Shown: in pieces, positions 7,211 through 45,723 of the stretch | How positions within the stretch are numbered: position 1 is the stretch's first letter | Layout of the letters: every line of letters begins with the position of its first letter | Source: Steroidobacteraceae bacterium | Lineage (GTDB): Bacteria; Pseudomonadota; Gammaproteobacteria; Steroidobacterales; Steroidobacteraceae | Reading direction: 5' to 3' | Length of the DNA stretch: 64,000 bases | NCBI GenBank assembly: GCA_025458905.1 | Contig: JALORN010000011.1 | Span: 1 to 64,000, forward strand | Position numbers and translations under genes: made by a program | The notes under the pieces: model-generated | Databases searched by the model: none | What the model was told of the DNA's origin: nothing | The model's input: the letters and a program-made list of their open reading frames with translations, nothing else

Positions 7211-7717
7211 GGCGGTACGCCGCGCGCGATATCTATTGATCACCTGTCGGCGCCAGACGAGCTCCAGCAGGGCCCAGCCCGTCAGTCCCCCGGCCACCCC
7301 GCAAAGCGCGCACCCGGCGAGGAACGGCTTCCACACGGGCCCTAGCCCGCGCTGCAGCCAGTCCCAGGACAGCTCGAAGTCGAAGGCGCCGCGCGGCTCC
7401 CCGAGGGCCAGGCAGCCGACGCGGTAGGCGAGGTAGTACACGGGGACGGCCGTCAGCGGGTTCAGCAGGAACGTCGTCGAGACGATCACCGGCACGTTCA
7501 CGCGGGCCAGCACCGCGACCGCGAGCGCCGTCGGCACGTGGACGGGCAGCGGCAGGAAGCAGATCGAGAGGCCGGCGCCGAAGGCGACGGTGATGCCGCG
7601 CCGCTGCAGCGACCACAGCCGCGAGTCGCCGAGCCAGCGCGCGAAGGGCCGGGCGTACCAGCGGTGCCGGAGCCGCTGCACGCGGCCGGCGAGGTGGCGG
7701 ATGAACGGGCGGAGCAT
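7199..7717 (-). CDS. DUF2062 family membrane protein
   Basis: The protein has 172 residues and a hydrophobic core: [40 protein letters not shown], a loop [19 protein letters not shown], and a C-terminal span [17 protein letters not shown]. The NP(L)T and small-residue pattern between spans is that of DUF2062 proteins, which often sit beside lol and comEC genes in gammaproteobacteria. No biochemical function is established. I set the start at ATG 7717 ([16 protein letters not shown]). The frame stays open far upstream, but that region is antisense to comEC. The start region overlaps the likely comEC start on the other strand. Confidence 0.8.
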
Positions 7718-10157
7718 CGGAGGCGGACACTCTAGCAGCCCGGCGTCGCAGCGGTCGGCGCGGCCTGCCGGGCTCCCCGCGGCCGCCGGTTTCGCACTGT
7801 GCACGGGCTGCTGCCTGGCGCTCTGGGGGCCGTGGCTTCCCGGCGGCGTGGCGCTGCTGGTGGCGGCAGTGGCCGCCGTGCTCTGCGCAGCGGCGTCCCG
7901 GCCGGTGCTCGCCTGCCTGCTCGCCGGCTTCGTCGCCAGCGGCGCGGTCGCGCACCGGCAGGTCGCGCTGCGCTGGCCCGCGGCACTCGCAGGCGAGCGG
8001 GTCGTCGTCGAGGGCCGGGTCGATGGGCTGCCACGGGGCGACGGCGCCCAGGTGCGCTTCGATCTCGAGGGCGCGATCGTCGCTCCGGCCTCGCTCGCCC
8101 GGCCGGTCCGGCTGCGCGCCACCGCACGCGACCCCGCGGTGCGGCCGCGCGCGGGCGAGCGCTGGCGACTGCTGCTGCGGCTCGAGCCGCCGCGCGCTGC
8201 CGCGAATCCCGGCGGGCCGGACGCGGAACGCCTGCTGTTCATCGAGCGGATCGACGCGCTGGCCACGGTGGTGCCGTCGCGGCTCGGTGCGCGGCTCGCG
8301 GCCGCGGGGCCGGGCCTGGATGGGCTGCGCGCGGCGATCGGCGAGCGCATCCGCGAGAGCGTCGCCGATCGCGATGCGGCGGCGCTGATCGCGGGCCTCG
8401 CGATCGGCGCCAGCGCCGACATCAGCCGCGAGCAGTGGCGGGTGTTCGGCGCGACCGGCACCGTGCACCTGGTCGCGATCTCCGGGCTGCACGTCACGTT
8501 GTTCGCCTGGCTTGCGACTCTCGGCGCGCGCCGCGCGTGGCGCGTGCTGCGCCTCGGTTCGCGCGTCGAGCGCGAGCCCTTCGCAGCGTGCTTCGGGATC
8601 GCCGCCGCCGCGGCCTACGCGCTGCTCGCGGGCTTCGGCATCCCCGCCCAGCGCACCCTGGTGATGCTCGTCACCTGGTGGGCGGCGCGGCTCGGCGGAC
8701 GCCGGGCCGGCGGCATCGAGGTGGTCGGCCTCGCCCTGCTGGTGGTGCTGGCGCTCGACCCGCTGGCGCCCTTGTCGGCGGGATTCTGGCTGTCGTTCGC
8801 GGCCATCGCGGTGCTGATCGCGGCGGGGGCCGAAGATGCGGCGCGGCCGGGTGTCGTGCCGCGGGCCGCGCGCAGCGACCGCCATTGGGCCACGATCCCC
8901 ACCCGGCTGGCTGCGGCGGCGATCGAGCTGCTGCGCACGCAATGGCGGATCACCCTGGCACTCGCGCCCGCGACCCTCGTGCTGTTCGGCACCGTTCCGC
9001 TGGCCGGCCTGCTCGCGAACCTCGTCGCCATCCCGTTCTTCTCGGCGCTCTTGGTCCCGCTGATCCTCGCCGCGCTCGCGGCCTTGCCCTGGTCGCCCGG
9101 ACTGGCCGCGTCCGGCTGGCAGCTCGCCGAGCGCCTGTACCTCGCGGCCTGGCCCGGTCTCGAGGCGTTCGCGGCACTGCCTGCCTCGGACTGGCTGCGC
9201 ACGCCGCCGCCCGGCTGGCTGCCGGTCGCGCTGCTGGCATTGCCGTGGTGCGCGTTGCCCGTGCCTACGGCGCTGCGCGCCACCGCGCTGGCCGCAGTGC
9301 TGCCGCTGCTCGGCCCGGCGCAGGCGCCGCCCGAGCGCGGCAGCTTCCGCGCGCTGCTGCTCGAGACGGGCGATGGCACGGCGCTGGTGCTGATGACCCG
9401 GGCGCACACCGTGGTCTACGACACCGGCGATGTCTACGGCAGCGCCGGCGCTCGGGCCAGCCAGGCCGTGCTGCCGGCGCTGCGGGCCCACGGCCGCCAC
9501 CGGGTCGACCTGCTGGTGCAGAGCCGCGCCGTCGGCTTTCGCGTCGCCGGCGTCGCGGCGCTGCTCGACGGCGTCGAAGTGCGCGAGCTGCGCTCGGGCG
9601 GGAGCTGGAACGGCGCGCCGCGTCCCGGAGTCGCCTGCGACTCGGAGACGGGCTGGATCTGGGACGACGTCGAGTTCCGCGTGTTCCCGGCCGCGCCGAC
9701 CCACGGCCGCGTCGGCGGCGGCGGGGGCGGGACCGGGGGCGAGGGCAGCGTGGCGTCCTGCGTGCTGCGGGTCGCGGCGGCGCGCGGCCGGGGCGCGGCC
9801 TTGCTGCTGGCGGGACAGCTCGACGCGGCCGAGGCGCTGCAGGCCGGCGGTGCCGCCGGCGCCTCGCGCTGGCGCGCCGACACGGTGCTGGCGCCGCGCC
9901 GCGGCTCGACCCGCGTACCGGCCGCGACGCTGGCCGCGGCGATCGCACCACGCCAGCTGCTGGTGGCGAGTCGCGACCTGTCGCCCGGGCGGCGCGCCGC
10001 GCTGGCGCGTGCCTGGGGCATCGCGCCGGCCGAGGTGCGCGCGACCGCGCTCGAAGGCGCGCTGGTGGTCGAGGTCGCCGCCGACCGTGAGCGTCTCGAG
10101 GTCGGGCGCTGGCTCGACGCGCAGCCACGCCGCCACTGGCGCGTACCGCGCGAATGA
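7701..10157 (+). CDS. comEC: ComEC/Rec2 DNA-uptake channel with a degenerate beta-lactamase domain
   Basis: ComEC forms the inner-membrane channel for single-stranded DNA during natural transformation. The protein has about 818 residues: an N-terminal hydrophobic and DUF4131-like region, then the competence domain with GLAIGASADISREQWRVF and ATGTVHLVAISGLHVTLFA, multiple membrane spans, and a C-terminal metallo-beta-lactamase-like domain from about residue 545. That domain keeps its fold pattern (TVVYDTGD, VDLLVQS, SCVLRV), but the HxxxDH-type site reads QSRAVGFRVAG, the usual GD reads AGQ, and PHHGS reads PRRGS, so the metal ligands appear lost. The start is uncertain: ATG 7701 is the last good candidate before the conserved part. 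It ends convergently with the GT2 gene. Confidence 0.9.
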   Translation: MNGRSIGGGHSSSPASQRSARPAGLPAAAGFALCTGCCLALWGPWLPGGVALLVAAVAAVLCAAASRPVLACLLAGFVASGAVAHRQVALRWPAALAGERVVVEGRVDGLPRGDGAQVRFDLEGAIVAPASLARPVRLRATARDPAVRPRAGERWRLLLRLEPPRAAANPGGPDAERLLFIERIDALATVVPSRLGARLAAAGPGLDGLRAAIGERIRESVADRDAAALIAGLAIGASADISREQWRVFGATGTVHLVAISGLHVTLFAWLATLGARRAWRVLRLGSRVEREPFAACFGIAAAAAYALLAGFGIPAQRTLVMLVTWWAARLGGRRAGGIEVVGLALLVVLALDPLAPLSAGFWLSFAAIAVLIAAGAEDAARPGVVPRAARSDRHWATIPTRLAAAAIELLRTQWRITLALAPATLVLFGTVPLAGLLANLVAIPFFSALLVPLILAALAALPWSPGLAASGWQLAERLYLAAWPGLEAFAALPASDWLRTPPPGWLPVALLALPWCALPVPTALRATALAAVLPLLGPAQAPPERGSFRALLLETGDGTALVLMTRAHTVVYDTGDVYGSAGARASQAVLPALRAHGRHRVDLLVQSRAVGFRVAGVAALLDGVEVRELRSGGSWNGAPRPGVACDSETGWIWDDVEFRVFPAAPTHGRVGGGGGGTGGEGSVASCVLRVAAARGRGAALLLAGQLDAAEALQAGGAAGASRWRADTVLAPRRGSTRVPAATLAAAIAPRQLLVASRDLSPGRRAALARAWGIAPAEVRATALEGALVVEVAADRERLEVGRWLDAQPRRHWRVPRE

Positions 10158-10206: not shown

Positions 10207-11151
10207 TCAGGGTTGCTGGGACGGACTGCCGCGGAAGCGGATCGAGCTGTTCAGGTAGTGCAGGCGCTTCAGCTCGTTGCGTGCGCGCGTGACCGTGCCG
10301 AGGATCAGGCCGCAGACGAACGAGAGCGCCGCCGTCAGGGCGAGGCCGGTCGCCAGCACCGCCGTGGGCAGCCGCGGCACCAGGCCGGTCTGCGCGTACT
10401 CGACGAAGATCGGTACTGCGAACAGCAGTGAAGCGAGCATCAGCAGTGCCCCGACGGCGCCGAAGAACTGCATCGGGATCTCCTCGCGCACCAGCTGTCC
10501 GATGGTGTTGAGGATGCGGAAACCGTCGCGGAAGGTGCTGAGCTTGCTGGCGCTGCCGCGCGGCCGGTCGGCATAGCGCGTCGCCACGTCGGCGATCGGC
10601 AGGCGCAGCTGCAGCGCGTGCACGGTCAGCTCGGTCTCGATCTCGAAGCCCGACGACAGCGCCGGGAAGGTCTTGACGAAACGTCGCGACATCACCCGAT
10701 AGCCCGACAGCATGTCGCTCGAGCGCTTGCCGAAGATCTTCGCGACCAGCGTGGTCAGCAGCCAGTTGCCGAACTTGTGGCCGCGCCGGTAGGCGGCGGC
10801 GCCTTCCTCGACGCGGGTCCCGGTGACCATGTCGAGCGACTCGCGCATCAGCTTGTCGACCAGCGCCGGCGCGGCGGCCGCATCGTAGGTGGCATCGCCG
10901 TCGACCATCACGTAGATGTCGGCCTCCACGTCGGCGAACATGCGGCGCACGACGTTGCCCTTGCCCTTCAGCGGTTCGCTGCGCACCACCGCGCCGTGGG
11001 CGCGCGCCACCTCGACGGTGCGGTCGGTCGAGCCGTTGTCGTAGACGAACACCACGGCCTCGGGCAGGTGCTGGCGGAACGCGTCGATCACCAGGCCGAT
11101 GGCGACCTCTTCGTTCAGGCACGGGACGATCACGGCGATCTCGGGCTTCAC
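10207..11151 (-). CDS. GT2 glycosyltransferase, GtrB/DPM-like, with two C-terminal membrane spans
   Basis: This inverting GT-A enzyme probably moves a sugar from a nucleotide donor to a polyprenyl phosphate. It has 314 residues. The catalytic domain begins IAVIVPCLNEEVAI and carries YDNGSTDRT, a DxD-type VDGDATYD, then MLSGYRVMSRRF and SGFEIETELT. Two hydrophobic segments (residues ~235-265 and ~270-295) end the protein, as in GtrB. The start is GTG 11151, which overlaps the stop of the upstream gene as GTGA, so it is translationally coupled. With the GT-C and GtrA genes it forms a three-gene set. The sugar cannot be told from sequence. Confidence 0.88.
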   Translation of the reverse strand: MKPEIAVIVPCLNEEVAIGLVIDAFRQHLPEAVVFVYDNGSTDRTVEVARAHGAVVRSEPLKGKGNVVRRMFADVEADIYVMVDGDATYDAAAAPALVDKLMRESLDMVTGTRVEEGAAAYRRGHKFGNWLLTTLVAKIFGKRSSDMLSGYRVMSRRFVKTFPALSSGFEIETELTVHALQLRLPIADVATRYADRPRGSASKLSTFRDGFRILNTIGQLVREEIPMQFFGAVGALLMLASLLFAVPIFVEYAQTGLVPRLPTAVLATGLALTAALSFVCGLILGTVTRARNELKRLHYLNSSIRFRGSPSQQP

Positions 11152-12689
11152 GGGATGCCTCTCGGGGACGGTCCGGCCGTGGGCCGGCGGACGTAGATGC
11201 GATAGGGGGGGCGGTCGTATTCGAGCCGGAACGCGCCGGAGGCGCGCAAGGGCGGCTCCTGCACCTGGGTACGCGGATCGGACGTGCCGCCGTTGAACAC
11301 GTACCAGTCCACGCGGTCGAGGTTCTGCGGCTGGTTGATCGCGAACGCGACCCTGTCGGTCAGCAGGCGGAACGCCCGCGGCCTGAAGAACGCGATGCGG
11401 GCGCCGGCGGGCGCGTGCTCGCGGACGTAGGTCATGACCTCGGTCGTGGCGGGCGCGAAGGGTGCCTCGACGCCCGGGTCGGCATAGGACTGCTGGTCGG
11501 TGCGGATCTTGACCAGCATCAACAGGGCGACGAGCGCTGGGGCGACGACGGCGAGGCCCTGCGCCAGCGACCGCGCACGCTCCGCGCCCAGCCGGCGTGC
11601 CAGCGCCTCGCGCGCGCCGGCGCAGCCGAACACCAGCAGCAGCCCTGCCGCGGGCAGCAGCGGATGGTAGTAGCGCTCGCCGCCGTCGAACGGGAACACG
11701 GTGAGCAGCGCCAAGTGCAGGGCGAGGTAGACGAGCGCGATGGCGCCCTCCCAGGGACGCCGCAGCACGCCCCAGGCCATCAGCGCCAGCATCAGGCCGA
11801 GCGGCAGCAGCTTCCCCGGGCCGAGCAGCGTCTTGAAGGTCACCCAGGTGGCGATCGCGTGCACGTGGGCGAGCGCGCGTCGCGCCCAGACCCCGGGGTC
11901 GGTCGTGAGGTAGCTCGCGTGCACCAGGCTGCCGTCCGGCAAGGCCGCGAAATACAGCGCCACCAGTGCGGACATCACCGCGGCGAACGCCGCGCCATGG
12001 AGCAGCGTCGCTCTCCAGGCCTGCGAGCCGCGCAGCGCGGCGAGGCCGAGCATCGCCGCATAAGTGCAGGGGATCACCGCGCCGTTCGAGCGCACGGCGA
12101 AGGCCGAGGCCCCGACCAGCGCGACCGACAGCATCAGGGCCGTGCTCCAACGCTGGCCGGCAGCGGCGCGGCGCCACTGCATGAACACCAGCAGCAGTGC
12201 CAGCGCCGACAGCGCCGTGAACGGCACGTCGCTGCCGAGGTAGCTGGCGTCGAGCACGACGGCCGGCTGCATCGCCACGGCCAACGTCGCGAACACGGCG
12301 AGCGCCCGGCCGACGTGCAGCCGGGCGAGCGCATAAGTGGAGGCGGCGAGCACCAGCAGGGAGAGCCCGCCGACCGCCTTCAGTCCCACGATCGACCAGC
12401 CCGACGCGAGCCCCGCCGCGGCCAGCAACAGCGGATAGCCCCAGGGGTAGGCGTAAGGCCCGATCTGGACGTCACCGCCGTCCATCGCGACCGTGTTGGT
12501 CGCGAGCTCCGCATCGACGCGGCCCTCGACCAGCGCACGGGCCTGCAGCAGGTAACCGGCCCAGTCGTCGCCCCAGTGCATCAGGGGGGTGAGGCCGGCT
12601 GCCCAGGCACCGGCCACGAGCGCCGCGAGCCCGAGCAGCCAGGGCCACTCGTCCGCGGGCCGTGGTGCCGGCGGGAGGGGCGTGCTCAT
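11148..12689 (-). CDS. Membrane glycosyltransferase of the GT-C (GT39/ArnT-like) type
   Basis: The protein has 513 residues with about ten hydrophobic segments. It has an acidic first periplasmic loop MHWGDDWAGYLLQARALVEG, as in GT39/PMT/ArnT enzymes, where the acidic pair is catalytic, and a soluble C-terminal periplasmic tail from about residue 420. Such enzymes take a polyprenyl-phosphate sugar on the periplasmic side and transfer it to a glycan, lipid A or protein. Here it would use the product of the neighbouring GT2 enzyme after flipping by the GtrA-like protein. ATG 12689 lies 25 nt after the gtrA-like stop. The acceptor is unknown. Confidence 0.82.
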   Translation of the reverse strand: MSTPLPPAPRPADEWPWLLGLAALVAGAWAAGLTPLMHWGDDWAGYLLQARALVEGRVDAELATNTVAMDGGDVQIGPYAYPWGYPLLLAAAGLASGWSIVGLKAVGGLSLLVLAASTYALARLHVGRALAVFATLAVAMQPAVVLDASYLGSDVPFTALSALALLLVFMQWRRAAAGQRWSTALMLSVALVGASAFAVRSNGAVIPCTYAAMLGLAALRGSQAWRATLLHGAAFAAVMSALVALYFAALPDGSLVHASYLTTDPGVWARRALAHVHAIATWVTFKTLLGPGKLLPLGLMLALMAWGVLRRPWEGAIALVYLALHLALLTVFPFDGGERYYHPLLPAAGLLLVFGCAGAREALARRLGAERARSLAQGLAVVAPALVALLMLVKIRTDQQSYADPGVEAPFAPATTEVMTYVREHAPAGARIAFFRPRAFRLLTDRVAFAINQPQNLDRVDWYVFNGGTSDPRTQVQEPPLRASGAFRLEYDRPPYRIYVRRPTAGPSPRGIP

Positions 12690-12714
12690 GAGCGCGCGAC
12701 CGTGCGGCGCCGCG

Positions 12715-13125
12715 TCACGGGCTGCTCCGGAAGACCAGGCGGCGCGACAGCAGGAAATTCGCCACCAGGCCCGCGGCCGAGCCCGCGCCCACTGCCAGCA
12801 CGGGCCAGCGCCGGGCGGTGTCCGAAAGGGCGACGCACAGCGCGTAGGTGCCGTAGTTCAGCAGGCCGCCGACGCTGTTGGCGGCGAGGAAGCGCGCCCA
12901 CTGCCGCAGCGGTGATCGCCGGTCGGCGTCGCGGAACGTGAGCCGCCGGTTCAGGAACCAGGTGAAGGTCGCGGCACAGAGCCAGGACCCGAGGCGTCCG
13001 ACGTACAGGCCAGCGCCGCCTGCGAGCAGGAGCTGCAGCATGCCGGCGTCGACGAAGAATGCCGCCGCGCCGATGCCGGCGAAGCTCAGCAACTCGCGCG
13101 AGACGATGGGTCCGGCCTGGGCCAA
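12715..13125 (-). CDS. GtrA family membrane protein (putative lipid-linked sugar flippase)
   Basis: The protein has 136 residues with four membrane segments in the GtrA pattern: RELLSFAGIGAAAFFVDAG, GRLGSWLCAATFTWFLNRRLTF, QWARFLAANSVGGLLNYGTY, and a last span ending NFLLSRRLVFR. GtrA proteins are thought to flip polyprenyl-linked sugars across the inner membrane. No ATG begins the conserved part. I chose TTG 13125, which has AGGGAG six bases upstream; an ATG near 13203 would add 26 poorly conserved residues. It is the first gene of the cassette, which reads away from exbB. Confidence 0.82.
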   Translation of the reverse strand: MAQAGPIVSRELLSFAGIGAAAFFVDAGMLQLLLAGGAGLYVGRLGSWLCAATFTWFLNRRLTFRDADRRSPLRQWARFLAANSVGGLLNYGTYALCVALSDTARRWPVLAVGAGSAAGLVANFLLSRRLVFRSSP

Positions 13126-13469
13126 GGGCGCTCCCTGAGGTCGTGGTTTCGGGGCGGAAAGTTTCTTTGTGTTCCGGGTACTTGCCCCGCAGCGGCGCAT
13201 CTTGCGGGATCCTGTGACCGCGACGGCGGGACGGACTCCGCAATTCAGTCCCGGCTGCGCGACCCGAGGTCGCCGGGCCCGGCGGTGAGCCGCCGGGACG
13301 CCGCTGCGCTGCGACATAATCTAGCAGCTCCGGTTGCGCACCGGTCGTTCCGGCAGGTGCGCTGGCGCCCGCTAAGCTGCTGTTTCGACGCGGATCCTGG
13401 ACGTTCAACAGGCGTTCGCGCGCTCCGGTATCATCCCGCCACCTTCGCTTGCCAGTCGGAACGTCCTAG
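13126..13469. other. Divergent intergenic region, gtrA-like / exbB
   Basis: This 344-nt stretch separates two divergent units and holds no credible gene. A TATCAT at 13429-13434 lies about 35 nt before exbB, with a poor TTCAAC 19 nt upstream, and could be a weak exbB promoter. A CG-rich inverted region occurs near 13270-13300. AT content is higher than in the flanking genes near 13140-13170 and 13310-13330. Nothing else is recognisable. Confidence 0.4.
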
Positions 13470-43585: not shown

Positions 43586-45723
43586 CGCGGCACGTCCTGC
43601 GATCGGGCCGGGGCCGGGGCCGGGGCCGGGGCAGGGGCAGGGCCTGCTGCACCCGAGGGCGTACCCCCGGGCGCGCTGGAGCCACCTGGTGGGCCCGAAC
43701 CCTGCGGCAGCCCCTGAGGTGTGCTGCGGCCGGCATCTGGCGCCGGCGCTGCCGGCACCGGAGGGACCGGCAGCTCGGGCAGGACCTGCTTCTGGATGCC
43801 CGGCAGCAGCGGCAGCACCTCGCCGCGCGGCCCCGAGCGTCGCTGCTGGTCACGGATGTAGTTGTATTTCTGGTTGGTCTCGAAGGTGGTCGCGACCCCG
43901 TCGCGCAGGATCCTCGGCTGGATGAAGACCATCAGGTTGGTCTTGTTCTTCTTGGCGCTGCGCGTGCGGAACGCCTCGCCGAGGATCGGGATGCGGCCGA
44001 GGAAGGGCACCCGCTGCTCGCCGCTGGTCTGCGTGTCCTGGATCAGGCCGCCGAGCACGATCGTGCCCCCGTCCTCGATCAGGACGTTGGTGTTGATGGT
44101 GCGCTTGTTGGTGATCAGGTCGACCGCGCCGCTGCTGGTGCCGGCGATGCTCGAGCTCTCCTGCTCGATCTTCAGCATCACCGAGTCGCCCTCGTTGATC
44201 TGCGGCGTGATCTTCAGGATCGTGCCGACTTCCTGGCGCGTGATCGTCTGGAACGGGTTGACCGCGCCGTTGTTGTTGCCGCCGGTGTTGGTGAACTGGC
44301 CGGTGACGAAGGGCACTTCCTGCGCGACCTTGATCTGCGCTTCCTGGTTGTCCATGGTCACGATCGACGGCGTCGCGATGATGTTGGTGTCCGAGTCGCC
44401 GCGCAGCGCGCGGATCACCGCCGCGAAGTTGATGCCGGTGTCGCCGAGCCGGCCGATGCCGATGGTCGTGCCGCGCGGCACGGCGGTCAGGGTGCTCGGG
44501 TCGTCCGCGGCACGCGCGAGGTCGACGATGCTGACGCCGCCGACCGGCTCGATGAAGCCGCCGACCGCCCGGTCCTCGTTGGTGCCGTCGATCAGCCAGT
44601 TGACCCCGAGCTCCGCGGACTTGTCCGCCGTGACCTCGACGATGATCGCCTCGACCAGCACCTGCGCGCGGCGGATGTCGAGGCTGTCGATCACCGTCAT
44701 CAGCGAGTTCATGGTCTTGGGCGGCGCGGTGATCACGAGCGCGTTGGTCTCGGGCTCGGCCCAGATGATGGTGCTGCGGTCGGCGATCGCCTGCGCGCCC
44801 TGGGCGGCGGGCGGGCCTGCGGCGGCGCCCGTGATCTGCTCCTTCAGCTTGGTGGCGATCTTCTCCGCGTCGGCGTAGCGCAGGTAGCGCACCCGGGTGT
44901 CGCCGCCGTTGGCGAGCGGCGTGTCGAGGTAGGCGATCAGCGTCCTGGCGCGGAGCCGCTGCGACTTCTCGCCCGACAGCAGCACGCTGTTCGAGCGGTC
45001 GTCGGCGACCACGCGCATCTGCGGCGAGCCGCCCTCGGCCTGGGCCTGCGCCTGGGTCAGCGCGGTCATGGTGCGCACCACCTCCGCAGCCGAGGCGTTC
45101 TGCAGCGCCACGACCTCGATGTCGGCATCGCTGGCCTGGTCGATGCGCTGGATGATCCGCAGCATCCGGTTCACGTTGTTGGCGCGGTCCGAGATGATCA
45201 GGATGTTGGCCGAGGGGTAGGCCGCGAGGTGGCCGTACTGGGGGATCAGCGGCCGCAGGATCGGCACCAGCTGCGCGGCACTGACGTTCCGCACCGCCAC
45301 CACCTGCGTGACGATCTCGTCGGAGGTGGCACTGACGCGGCCCGGCAGGTCGTTGCCCGGAACCTGGCGCGCGTTGGCGTCGGGGATGATCTTGGTGACG
45401 TTGCCCGAGGGAACGGCGACGAAGCCGTGCACCTGCAGCAGCGCGAGGAAGGCCTCGTAGAACGCGTCCGGCGACATCGGCGTCGAGGAGAGCATCGTCA
45501 CCTGCGCGCGCACGCGCGGGTCGATGATGATGTTGCGCCCGGTGGCGGCCCCGACCGCCTCGATGACCTGGGTGATGTCGGCATCCTTGAAGCTCGGCGT
45601 GATCCGCTGGGCGGCTGCGCCCGGCGCGGCCTGCTGCGCCGCACCCGGCAGCGCCACGAGGGTCAGCAGGCAGGCGGCGACCGCGGCGCGCACCCCGCCG
45701 AGGTGCGTCGCGAGGCGGCTCAC
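43582..45723 (-). CDS. gspD: Type II secretion secretin GspD
   Basis: GspD forms the outer-membrane pore of type II secretion. The protein has 713 residues: a signal peptide (AACLLTLVALPGAAQ), N0 (SFKDADITQVIEAVGAATGRNIIID), three N1-N3 repeats (PILRPLIPQYGHLAAYPSAN, VVALQNASAAEVVRTM, RYADAEKIATKLKEQITG), and the secretin barrel (VEAIIVEVTADKSAELGVNW, ATPSIVTMDNQEAQIKVAQE, LGGLIQDTQTSGEQRVPFLG). A Pro/Ala tail ends it. The start is GTG 45723, overlapping the gspC stop. No pilotin gene is adjacent. Confidence 0.96.
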   Translation of the reverse strand: MSRLATHLGGVRAAVAACLLTLVALPGAAQQAAPGAAAQRITPSFKDADITQVIEAVGAATGRNIIIDPRVRAQVTMLSSTPMSPDAFYEAFLALLQVHGFVAVPSGNVTKIIPDANARQVPGNDLPGRVSATSDEIVTQVVAVRNVSAAQLVPILRPLIPQYGHLAAYPSANILIISDRANNVNRMLRIIQRIDQASDADIEVVALQNASAAEVVRTMTALTQAQAQAEGGSPQMRVVADDRSNSVLLSGEKSQRLRARTLIAYLDTPLANGGDTRVRYLRYADAEKIATKLKEQITGAAAGPPAAQGAQAIADRSTIIWAEPETNALVITAPPKTMNSLMTVIDSLDIRRAQVLVEAIIVEVTADKSAELGVNWLIDGTNEDRAVGGFIEPVGGVSIVDLARAADDPSTLTAVPRGTTIGIGRLGDTGINFAAVIRALRGDSDTNIIATPSIVTMDNQEAQIKVAQEVPFVTGQFTNTGGNNNGAVNPFQTITRQEVGTILKITPQINEGDSVMLKIEQESSSIAGTSSGAVDLITNKRTINTNVLIEDGGTIVLGGLIQDTQTSGEQRVPFLGRIPILGEAFRTRSAKKNKTNLMVFIQPRILRDGVATTFETNQKYNYIRDQQRRSGPRGEVLPLLPGIQKQVLPELPVPPVPAAPAPDAGRSTPQGLPQGSGPPGGSSAPGGTPSGAAGPAPAPAPAPAPARSQDVPR
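43605..43642. repeat. GGGGCC/GGGGCA hexamer repeat at the gspD 3' end
   Basis: About six tandem six-base units (four GGGGCC, two GGGGCA) on the plus strand encode the Ala-Pro run at the GspD C-terminus on the minus strand. The G-rich strand could form a G-quadruplex close to the gspD-gspE junction, and repeat-length change would keep frame. Structure and effect are inferred. Confidence 0.7.

Follow-up and report, generated by a model that had tools for sequence, protein, structure and literature searches.

The question raised by this locus is what has become of a ComEC protein whose C-terminal domain (CTD) keeps the frame of a metallo-beta-lactamase (MBL) domain and none of its metal ligands: whether the domain is decaying, has been kept for another use, or owes its appearance to an error in the sequence. 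The window, meaning the whole stretch of 64,000 nucleotides that was analysed, contains one comEC gene and lies on contig C31 of a draft Steroidobacteraceae assembly (G000; 4.28 Mb in 109 contigs, 86% complete). The reading preferred here, to which a probability of about 0.7 is assigned, is that the window protein is a retained DNA channel whose CTD has turned into a conserved pseudo-nuclease.

The likely start of comEC, as read from the sequence, is the ATG at 7701, which gives an overlap of a few bases with a divergent DUF2062-like gene, and the frame runs without interruption to the stop at 10155-10157. Pfam matched the DUF4131 and Competence domains in the protein and did not find Lactamase_B (PF00753). 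The protein scored slightly below the cut-off of the NCBIfam equivalog ComEC_Rec2 (TIGR00361; 185.3 versus 190.05 bits), which is a naming threshold and does not define any part of the channel, and reached 201.6 bits against the cut-off of 969 for PRK11539. The closest solved chains by sequence were ComEC entries 9vcb (E 4e-36) and 9vcf (E 6e-36), and 9vc9 was also matched. Channel, OB fold and CTD fold together mark the window protein as a ComEC. Downstream, at about 10207-13317 on the minus strand, are frames that read in translation as glycosyltransferase-like, large membrane and GtrA-like proteins, which sit between comEC and exbB/exbD-like genes. A secretin encoded at 43906-44886 on the minus strand scored far below the PilQ cut-off (195.5 versus 284.35 bits) and is probably GspD of type II secretion.

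Table 1. Features of the window comEC gene and of its C-terminal domain (coordinates are those of the window)
Feature	Position	Strand	Basis and remarks
comEC	about 7701-10157	+	818 aa if the start is ATG 7701; open frame, translation, Pfam/NCBIfam ComEC families, solved ComEC chains
OB-fold domain, Pfam DUF4131 (PF13567)	7830-8273	+	68.9 bits versus cut-off 31.6; residues 38-185 of the protein (P0001)
Competence (PF03772) membrane channel domain	8397-9242	+	182-186 bits, cut-off 23; residues 227-508
CTD, ComEC metallo-beta-lactamase fold without metal ligands	9324-10154	+	profile of intact CTDs, 9336-10148, 114 bits
DTGD, kept fold landmark of the first motif	9420-9431	+	translation, alignment
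Motif II, SRAVGFRVAG, aligned to SHxDxDHxGG of intact homologues	9522-9551	+	both end His replaced by Arg, both Asp gone; alignment
Cys640	9636-9638	+	invariant in genus and intact rows
Cys681	9759-9761	+	invariant in genus and intact rows
Motif IV, LAGQLDA, aligned to LxGDIEx of intact homologues	9807-9827	+	Asp replaced by Gln in the window, by Arg in 18 of 20 genus rows
Motif V, APRRGS, aligned to xPHHGS of intact homologues	9891-9908	+	His replaced by Arg twice; alignment
VASRDLSPGRR at the YxNRWGFP loop of intact rows	9963-9995	+	loop shorter; invariant Asn and Pro gone in 20 of 20 genus rows

A MAFFT alignment with intact homologues showed that none of the seven metal or active-site His and Asp positions is retained in the window CTD (0/7). 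The sequence-only reading of this DNA had reported the three sites as QSRAVGFRVAG, AGQ and PRRGS, with the fold landmarks kept and every visible metal ligand gone from an intact frame, and all of this was borne out: the in-frame translation has SRAVGFRVAG, LAGQLDA and APRRGS, SCVLRV lies downstream of the DTGD of the same region, and the frame is open to its stop. The span given there, 9360-10157, needs a small correction, the limits of the domain being about 9324-10154. Possible relocation of the ligands, a check named in the same reading, was also pursued; the CTD, of roughly 272-277 residues, has only five His, none of them in an HxD or HxH pattern, so the ligands have not moved elsewhere within the domain and the loss stands. 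The motifs HxDxDH, GD and PHH are the defining feature of the catalytic MBL class, and the window CTD lacks them. Other residues that are invariant in the intact rows have been lost too, namely Asn at columns 677 and 753 and Pro at column 758. Metal catalysis has almost certainly been lost. The two invariant cysteines of Table 1 could form a disulfide.

The MBL fold itself is confidently predicted for the window CTD. An AlphaFold2 model of the domain, built from an alignment of 31 sequences, had a pLDDT of 89 and a pTM of 0.89, and a model of 800 ComEC residues (46 sequences) had values of 90 and 0.90. The best solved match of the CTD model was the Moorella structure 9ic4 (Z 26.4, rmsd 2.4, 235 residues aligned); a fold search with the whole protein returned chiefly MBL structures and added no information on the channel. 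A glycine-rich insert in the CTD at approximately 9705-9740 (residues 663-674), VGGGGGGTGGEG, is absent from the other rows of the genus and has low model confidence. Pfam Lactamase_B was found in none of five ligandless proteins (the window protein and four others) versus three of three intact relatives, and surveys based on Pfam can therefore score ligandless CTDs as absent. Many gains and losses of Lactamase_B in ComEC have been inferred from Pfam, according to PMC6299819, and since Pfam misses the ligandless domain, some of the losses described there may be ligandless CTDs.

Forty genomes were picked as relatives, 32 of which had a comEC match. The genus was represented by 24 genomes including that of the window; comEC was found in 20 of them, and all 20 keep at most one of the seven positions (0-1/7). 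The same loss was seen in public MAG loci L032-L039 and L068, most of which probably duplicate some of the 20 genus genomes. The comEC gene of L068 (VGUP01000007.1) and that of L021 (G003), which are perhaps one assembly, is split over two overlapping frames by a frameshift or an assembly error. A sample of the order comprised 246 genomes, 182 with a match; with further loci added, 25 rows from the family's other genera could be read. Eleven of these rows (genera g24, g27, g28, g31 and g33) have 0-3/7 positions left, and in 13 (g18, g19, g20, g23, g29, g30 and g32) the site is intact. The remaining row, L140 (G120, genus g25), has a partly degraded site with 3/7 positions, reading SHVDAGYASG, VPGD and VPARGS, and may be a separate loss under way. 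Two named records, L040 (Steroidobacteraceae) and L080, fall in the ligandless group. All 35 rows from other families of the order that were read among the matches listed are intact. The labels dead and intact were assigned by eye from the alignment before the ligands were counted, so the retention of each ligand in 61-62 of the 62 intact rows is partly by construction; the fragment L143 (G179), with three stops, was kept outside the classification. Among the genomes listed, 20 of the family (all from g21, g22 and g26, plus G072 of g19), rated 95-100% complete, have no comEC match. In g24, where ComEC is shortened to about 684 residues, motifs IV and V are missing, which indicates that the CTD can shrink.

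Ligand loss was also found elsewhere in the class. The survey of the class Gammaproteobacteria covered 369 genomes, 306 with a match and 63 without, and 152 loci were classified in a non-random selection: 109 from the better matches and 43 of the 46 weak ones, G269, G332 and G351 being left out. The better matches had 7/7 positions in 102 loci and 6/7 in seven. The weak matches had 7/7 in 28 loci, 6/7 in four, 5/7 in one and two or fewer in eight, and the last two were fragments with four positions missing. The eight ligand-poor loci (L315, L317, L318 and L320-L324; at most 2/7 positions, with 2-4 positions outside the alignment in five of them) belong to six other families. Ligand loss thus recurs in the Gammaproteobacteria, as a rule without a cluster of arginines, and arginine as a general outcome of ligand loss was not supported, because these eight loci have few Arg at the positions.

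A tree was inferred from the OB and channel part of 94 rows, without the CTD, by a quick method with SH-aLRT values and no bootstrap; it takes L040, L080 and 14 intact loci of the 80 named ones and leaves out L021, L032, L144 and L155 as fragments or near-copies. The 32 ligandless rows formed one clade with an SH-aLRT of 99. L140 fell outside this clade at an unresolved fork, and the group that includes it, in which the label needs only one change, had a support of 55. The simplest reading is that constraint was relaxed once, in an ancestor, and that decay went on from there. A single clean loss in the ancestor was rejected: the label needs one change, yet no ligand position is lost in every one of the 32 rows, and the genera differ in the residues that they keep. 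For the same reason, several partial losses inside one relaxed clade are possible.

The ligandless CTD of the genus is under purifying selection of about the same strength as the rest of ComEC. In 13 genus pairs, the dN/dS of the CTD was 0.115-0.414 (median 0.16) and that of the OB and channel part was 0.105-0.297 (median 0.14), by pairwise NG86 estimates with no branch model and with dS near or above 1 in some pairs; four intact pairs had CTD values of 0.118-0.259 by the same method. The CTD has very probably been kept for a function. The alignment with close relatives proposed in the sequence-only reading as a way of telling a new role from recent decay thus revealed a loss that is conserved throughout the clade in a domain under purifying selection. 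Recent decay in the window was ruled out on this basis, the loss being common to the genus and to other genera of the family.

The residues that now occupy the former metal site are themselves conserved in the genus. Arg is present in 18 of the 20 genus rows at II-H2, 18 at IV-D, all 20 at V-H1, 18 at V-H2 and nine at II-H1; it fills 84 of the 140 ligand cells, versus 11% of residues across the domain. Columns in which 85% or more of the 20 rows have Arg number only four among the 245 of the CTD, and each of them coincides with one of the seven ligand positions (hypergeometric probability 2.4e-7, a naive value that ignores kinship), in a domain whose median pairwise identity within the genus is 0.42. 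The mean net charge of the CTD, -1 in 62 intact rows, is +0.5 in ten ligandless rows from outside the genus and +6.4 in the genus (+8 in the window). The pattern has exceptions: motif IV of the window has Gln, unlike the Arg of 18 of the 20 rows, and the arginines of ligandless rows from other genera form a less regular pattern. The change from His to Arg takes one step (CAC to CGC) and raises GC, so in a high-GC genome the arginines may stem from mutational bias; their later conservation suggests a use. That they grip the DNA backbone is a tentative proposal, and such a grip would be a new trait, given that PMC12455585 reports no measurable DNA binding by the isolated, intact CTD of Moorella.

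Among the explanations that compete with the preferred one, the foremost is that transformation was lost in this clade, that the unneeded nuclease site decayed, and that ComEC has been reused elsewhere or is disappearing. The uptake machinery, scored against profile cut-offs in 79 genomes (70 for PilT), bears on it in both directions. ComEA was above the cut-off in 18 of the 20 comEC-bearing genus genomes, 25 of the 26 other comEC-bearing genomes of the family and none of the 20 listed ones without comEC; nor was it above the cut-off in the comEC-less genus genomes G002, G016, G022 and G023 (83-93% complete). DprA was found in 19 of the 20 comEC-bearing genus genomes, the exception being G012 (83% complete), in 26 of 26 others of the family, and in eight of the 20 listed without comEC, leaving 12 with no match. 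In part of the family, then, comEC is missing together with ComEA and often with DprA, which speaks for the loss of transformation; where comEC persists it is mostly accompanied by ComEA and DprA, which speaks against it.

PilQ and PilT were not above the cut-off in 22 of the 24 genus genomes (G001-G016 and G018-G023), most of which keep ComEA, ComEC and DprA and one of which, G007, is rated 100% complete. Both were present only in G017 and in the window genome, where ComEA, DprA, PilQ and PilT are all above the cut-off beside ComEC; in the ligandless genomes from the remaining genera, PilT was found in 11 of 11 and PilQ in 10 of 11. Because the window genome and the other ligandless genera still have PilQ and PilT, the simplest reading of these profiles is that the ligand site was lost earlier than the pilus, and the window genome still has what looks like a full uptake set. 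Experiments elsewhere lend the loss of transformation some weight: PMC12455585 reports that the Moorella nuclease needs metal coordination and that matching ligand mutants abolish transformation in Legionella pneumophila, and PMC8579336 that inactivating the ComEC nuclease in Bacillus subtilis severely inhibits it. The truncated CTD of g24 fits as well. Decay alone, however, would not lead one to expect conserved arginines, and the purifying selection on both the CTD and the channel in the genus speaks against this explanation; the loss of transformation as the explanation of this site is considered rather unlikely.

In another explanation, the degradation of the second strand was taken over by a different nuclease of the EndA kind and the CTD became a guide. 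A precedent exists in Streptococcus pneumoniae, where, as described in PMC5031224, ComEC keeps two of the seven metal positions and is judged inactive and EndA is the nuclease. The EndA family (PF01223), however, had matches in only five of 31 genomes whose comEC is ligandless, in G002 (which has no comEC match), in two of 12 intact genomes and in none of seven without comEC; the window assembly (86% complete) had none. Replacement by EndA was rejected on this sporadic distribution. To look for a separately encoded nuclease domain, a profile of intact CTDs was run on 38 genomes: 25 of the ligandless lineages, including G120 and the fragment-bearing G179, seven without comEC and six intact. No convincing second ComEC-type CTD was found in the 25 ligandless-lineage genomes; one further fragment scored above 24 bits (G221:C156, with 39.4 bits over profile positions 168-256) and is perhaps the end that the comEC of that genome lacks. 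One genome with an intact comEC, G224, had matches to the profile of up to 33.7 bits. With no candidate from the EndA family or among ComEC-type CTDs in the genomes searched, such a takeover is rather improbable.

That the CTD still cuts, through other residues or without metal, is very improbable: although Ser730 of PxxGS, a few adjacent residues and the fold itself are kept, all catalysis known for this domain depends on metal ligands, mutation of which abolishes or nearly abolishes activity (PMC12455585, PMC8579336), and the Asn and Pro residues mentioned above have gone too. A sequencing or assembly error, conceivable in a draft of this completeness, has a negligible probability, given that the site is absent from all 20 genus genomes and the MAG loci and that the domain is under purifying selection.

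The retained channel with a conserved pseudo-nuclease domain therefore remains the preferred account. Of the three options offered in the sequence-only reading, a structural or otherwise new role is the best supported, and takeover by another nuclease found no candidate in the EndA-family and CTD-profile searches; its third, loss of transformation, has a mixed outcome, set between the four uptake proteins kept in the window genome and the missing PilQ and PilT of most of the genus. In the mechanism proposed, the CTD would no longer hydrolyse DNA and would still pack against the OB fold and the channel, through which single-stranded DNA would still pass. The domain may grip or guide the phosphate backbone, the charge of the arginines substituting for the two Mn ions, and the second strand may be displaced, degraded by some other nuclease, or never present, the incoming DNA being single-stranded already. 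The most specific form of this proposal, in which conserved arginines took the place of the two-manganese centre and form a pocket that holds the incoming strand by its backbone and leaves it uncut, making ComEC a nuclease-free clamp-and-guide importer, is unlikely as a whole. If it is true, ComEC has shifted from an importer that cuts one strand to one without a nuclease, perhaps for DNA that is already single-stranded, and most of the genus would do so without PilQ/PilT-type type IV pili.

In the open-access literature, no paper on competence or ComEC in Steroidobacteraceae was found. PMC8579336 describes the handling of the second strand as an open question where ComEC has no nuclease domain, and in it Silale et al. 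suggest that an inactive CTD may persist as a guide; a clade with a dead yet selected CTD is natural material for studying the roles of this domain beyond cutting. A nuclease-dead ComEC is already known from S. pneumoniae. The pneumococcal protein resembles the present one in having a full-length MBL-type CTD whose metal site is lost (PMC5031224), but it belongs to a Gram-positive species with EndA, whereas the proteins of this Gram-negative genus keep 0-1/7 positions, have conserved Arg and are not consistently accompanied by PF01223. The ComEC proteins of Moorella glycerini and L. pneumophila share the domain order and the CTD fold (9ic4, Z 26.4); their nuclease needs a two-Mn site according to PMC12455585, whereas the window CTD is without any ligand. 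Helicobacter pylori ComEC is similar in that, as described in PMC5031224 and PMC12455585, there is no working nuclease domain and no EndA homologue, but there the CTD is missing, while here it is present and conserved. A more distant likeness is to CPSF100/Cft2, an MBL-fold pseudo-nuclease retained in a nucleic-acid-processing assembly (PMC6436931); this is a separate eukaryotic subunit beside an active nuclease, and no shared role with ComEC is claimed.
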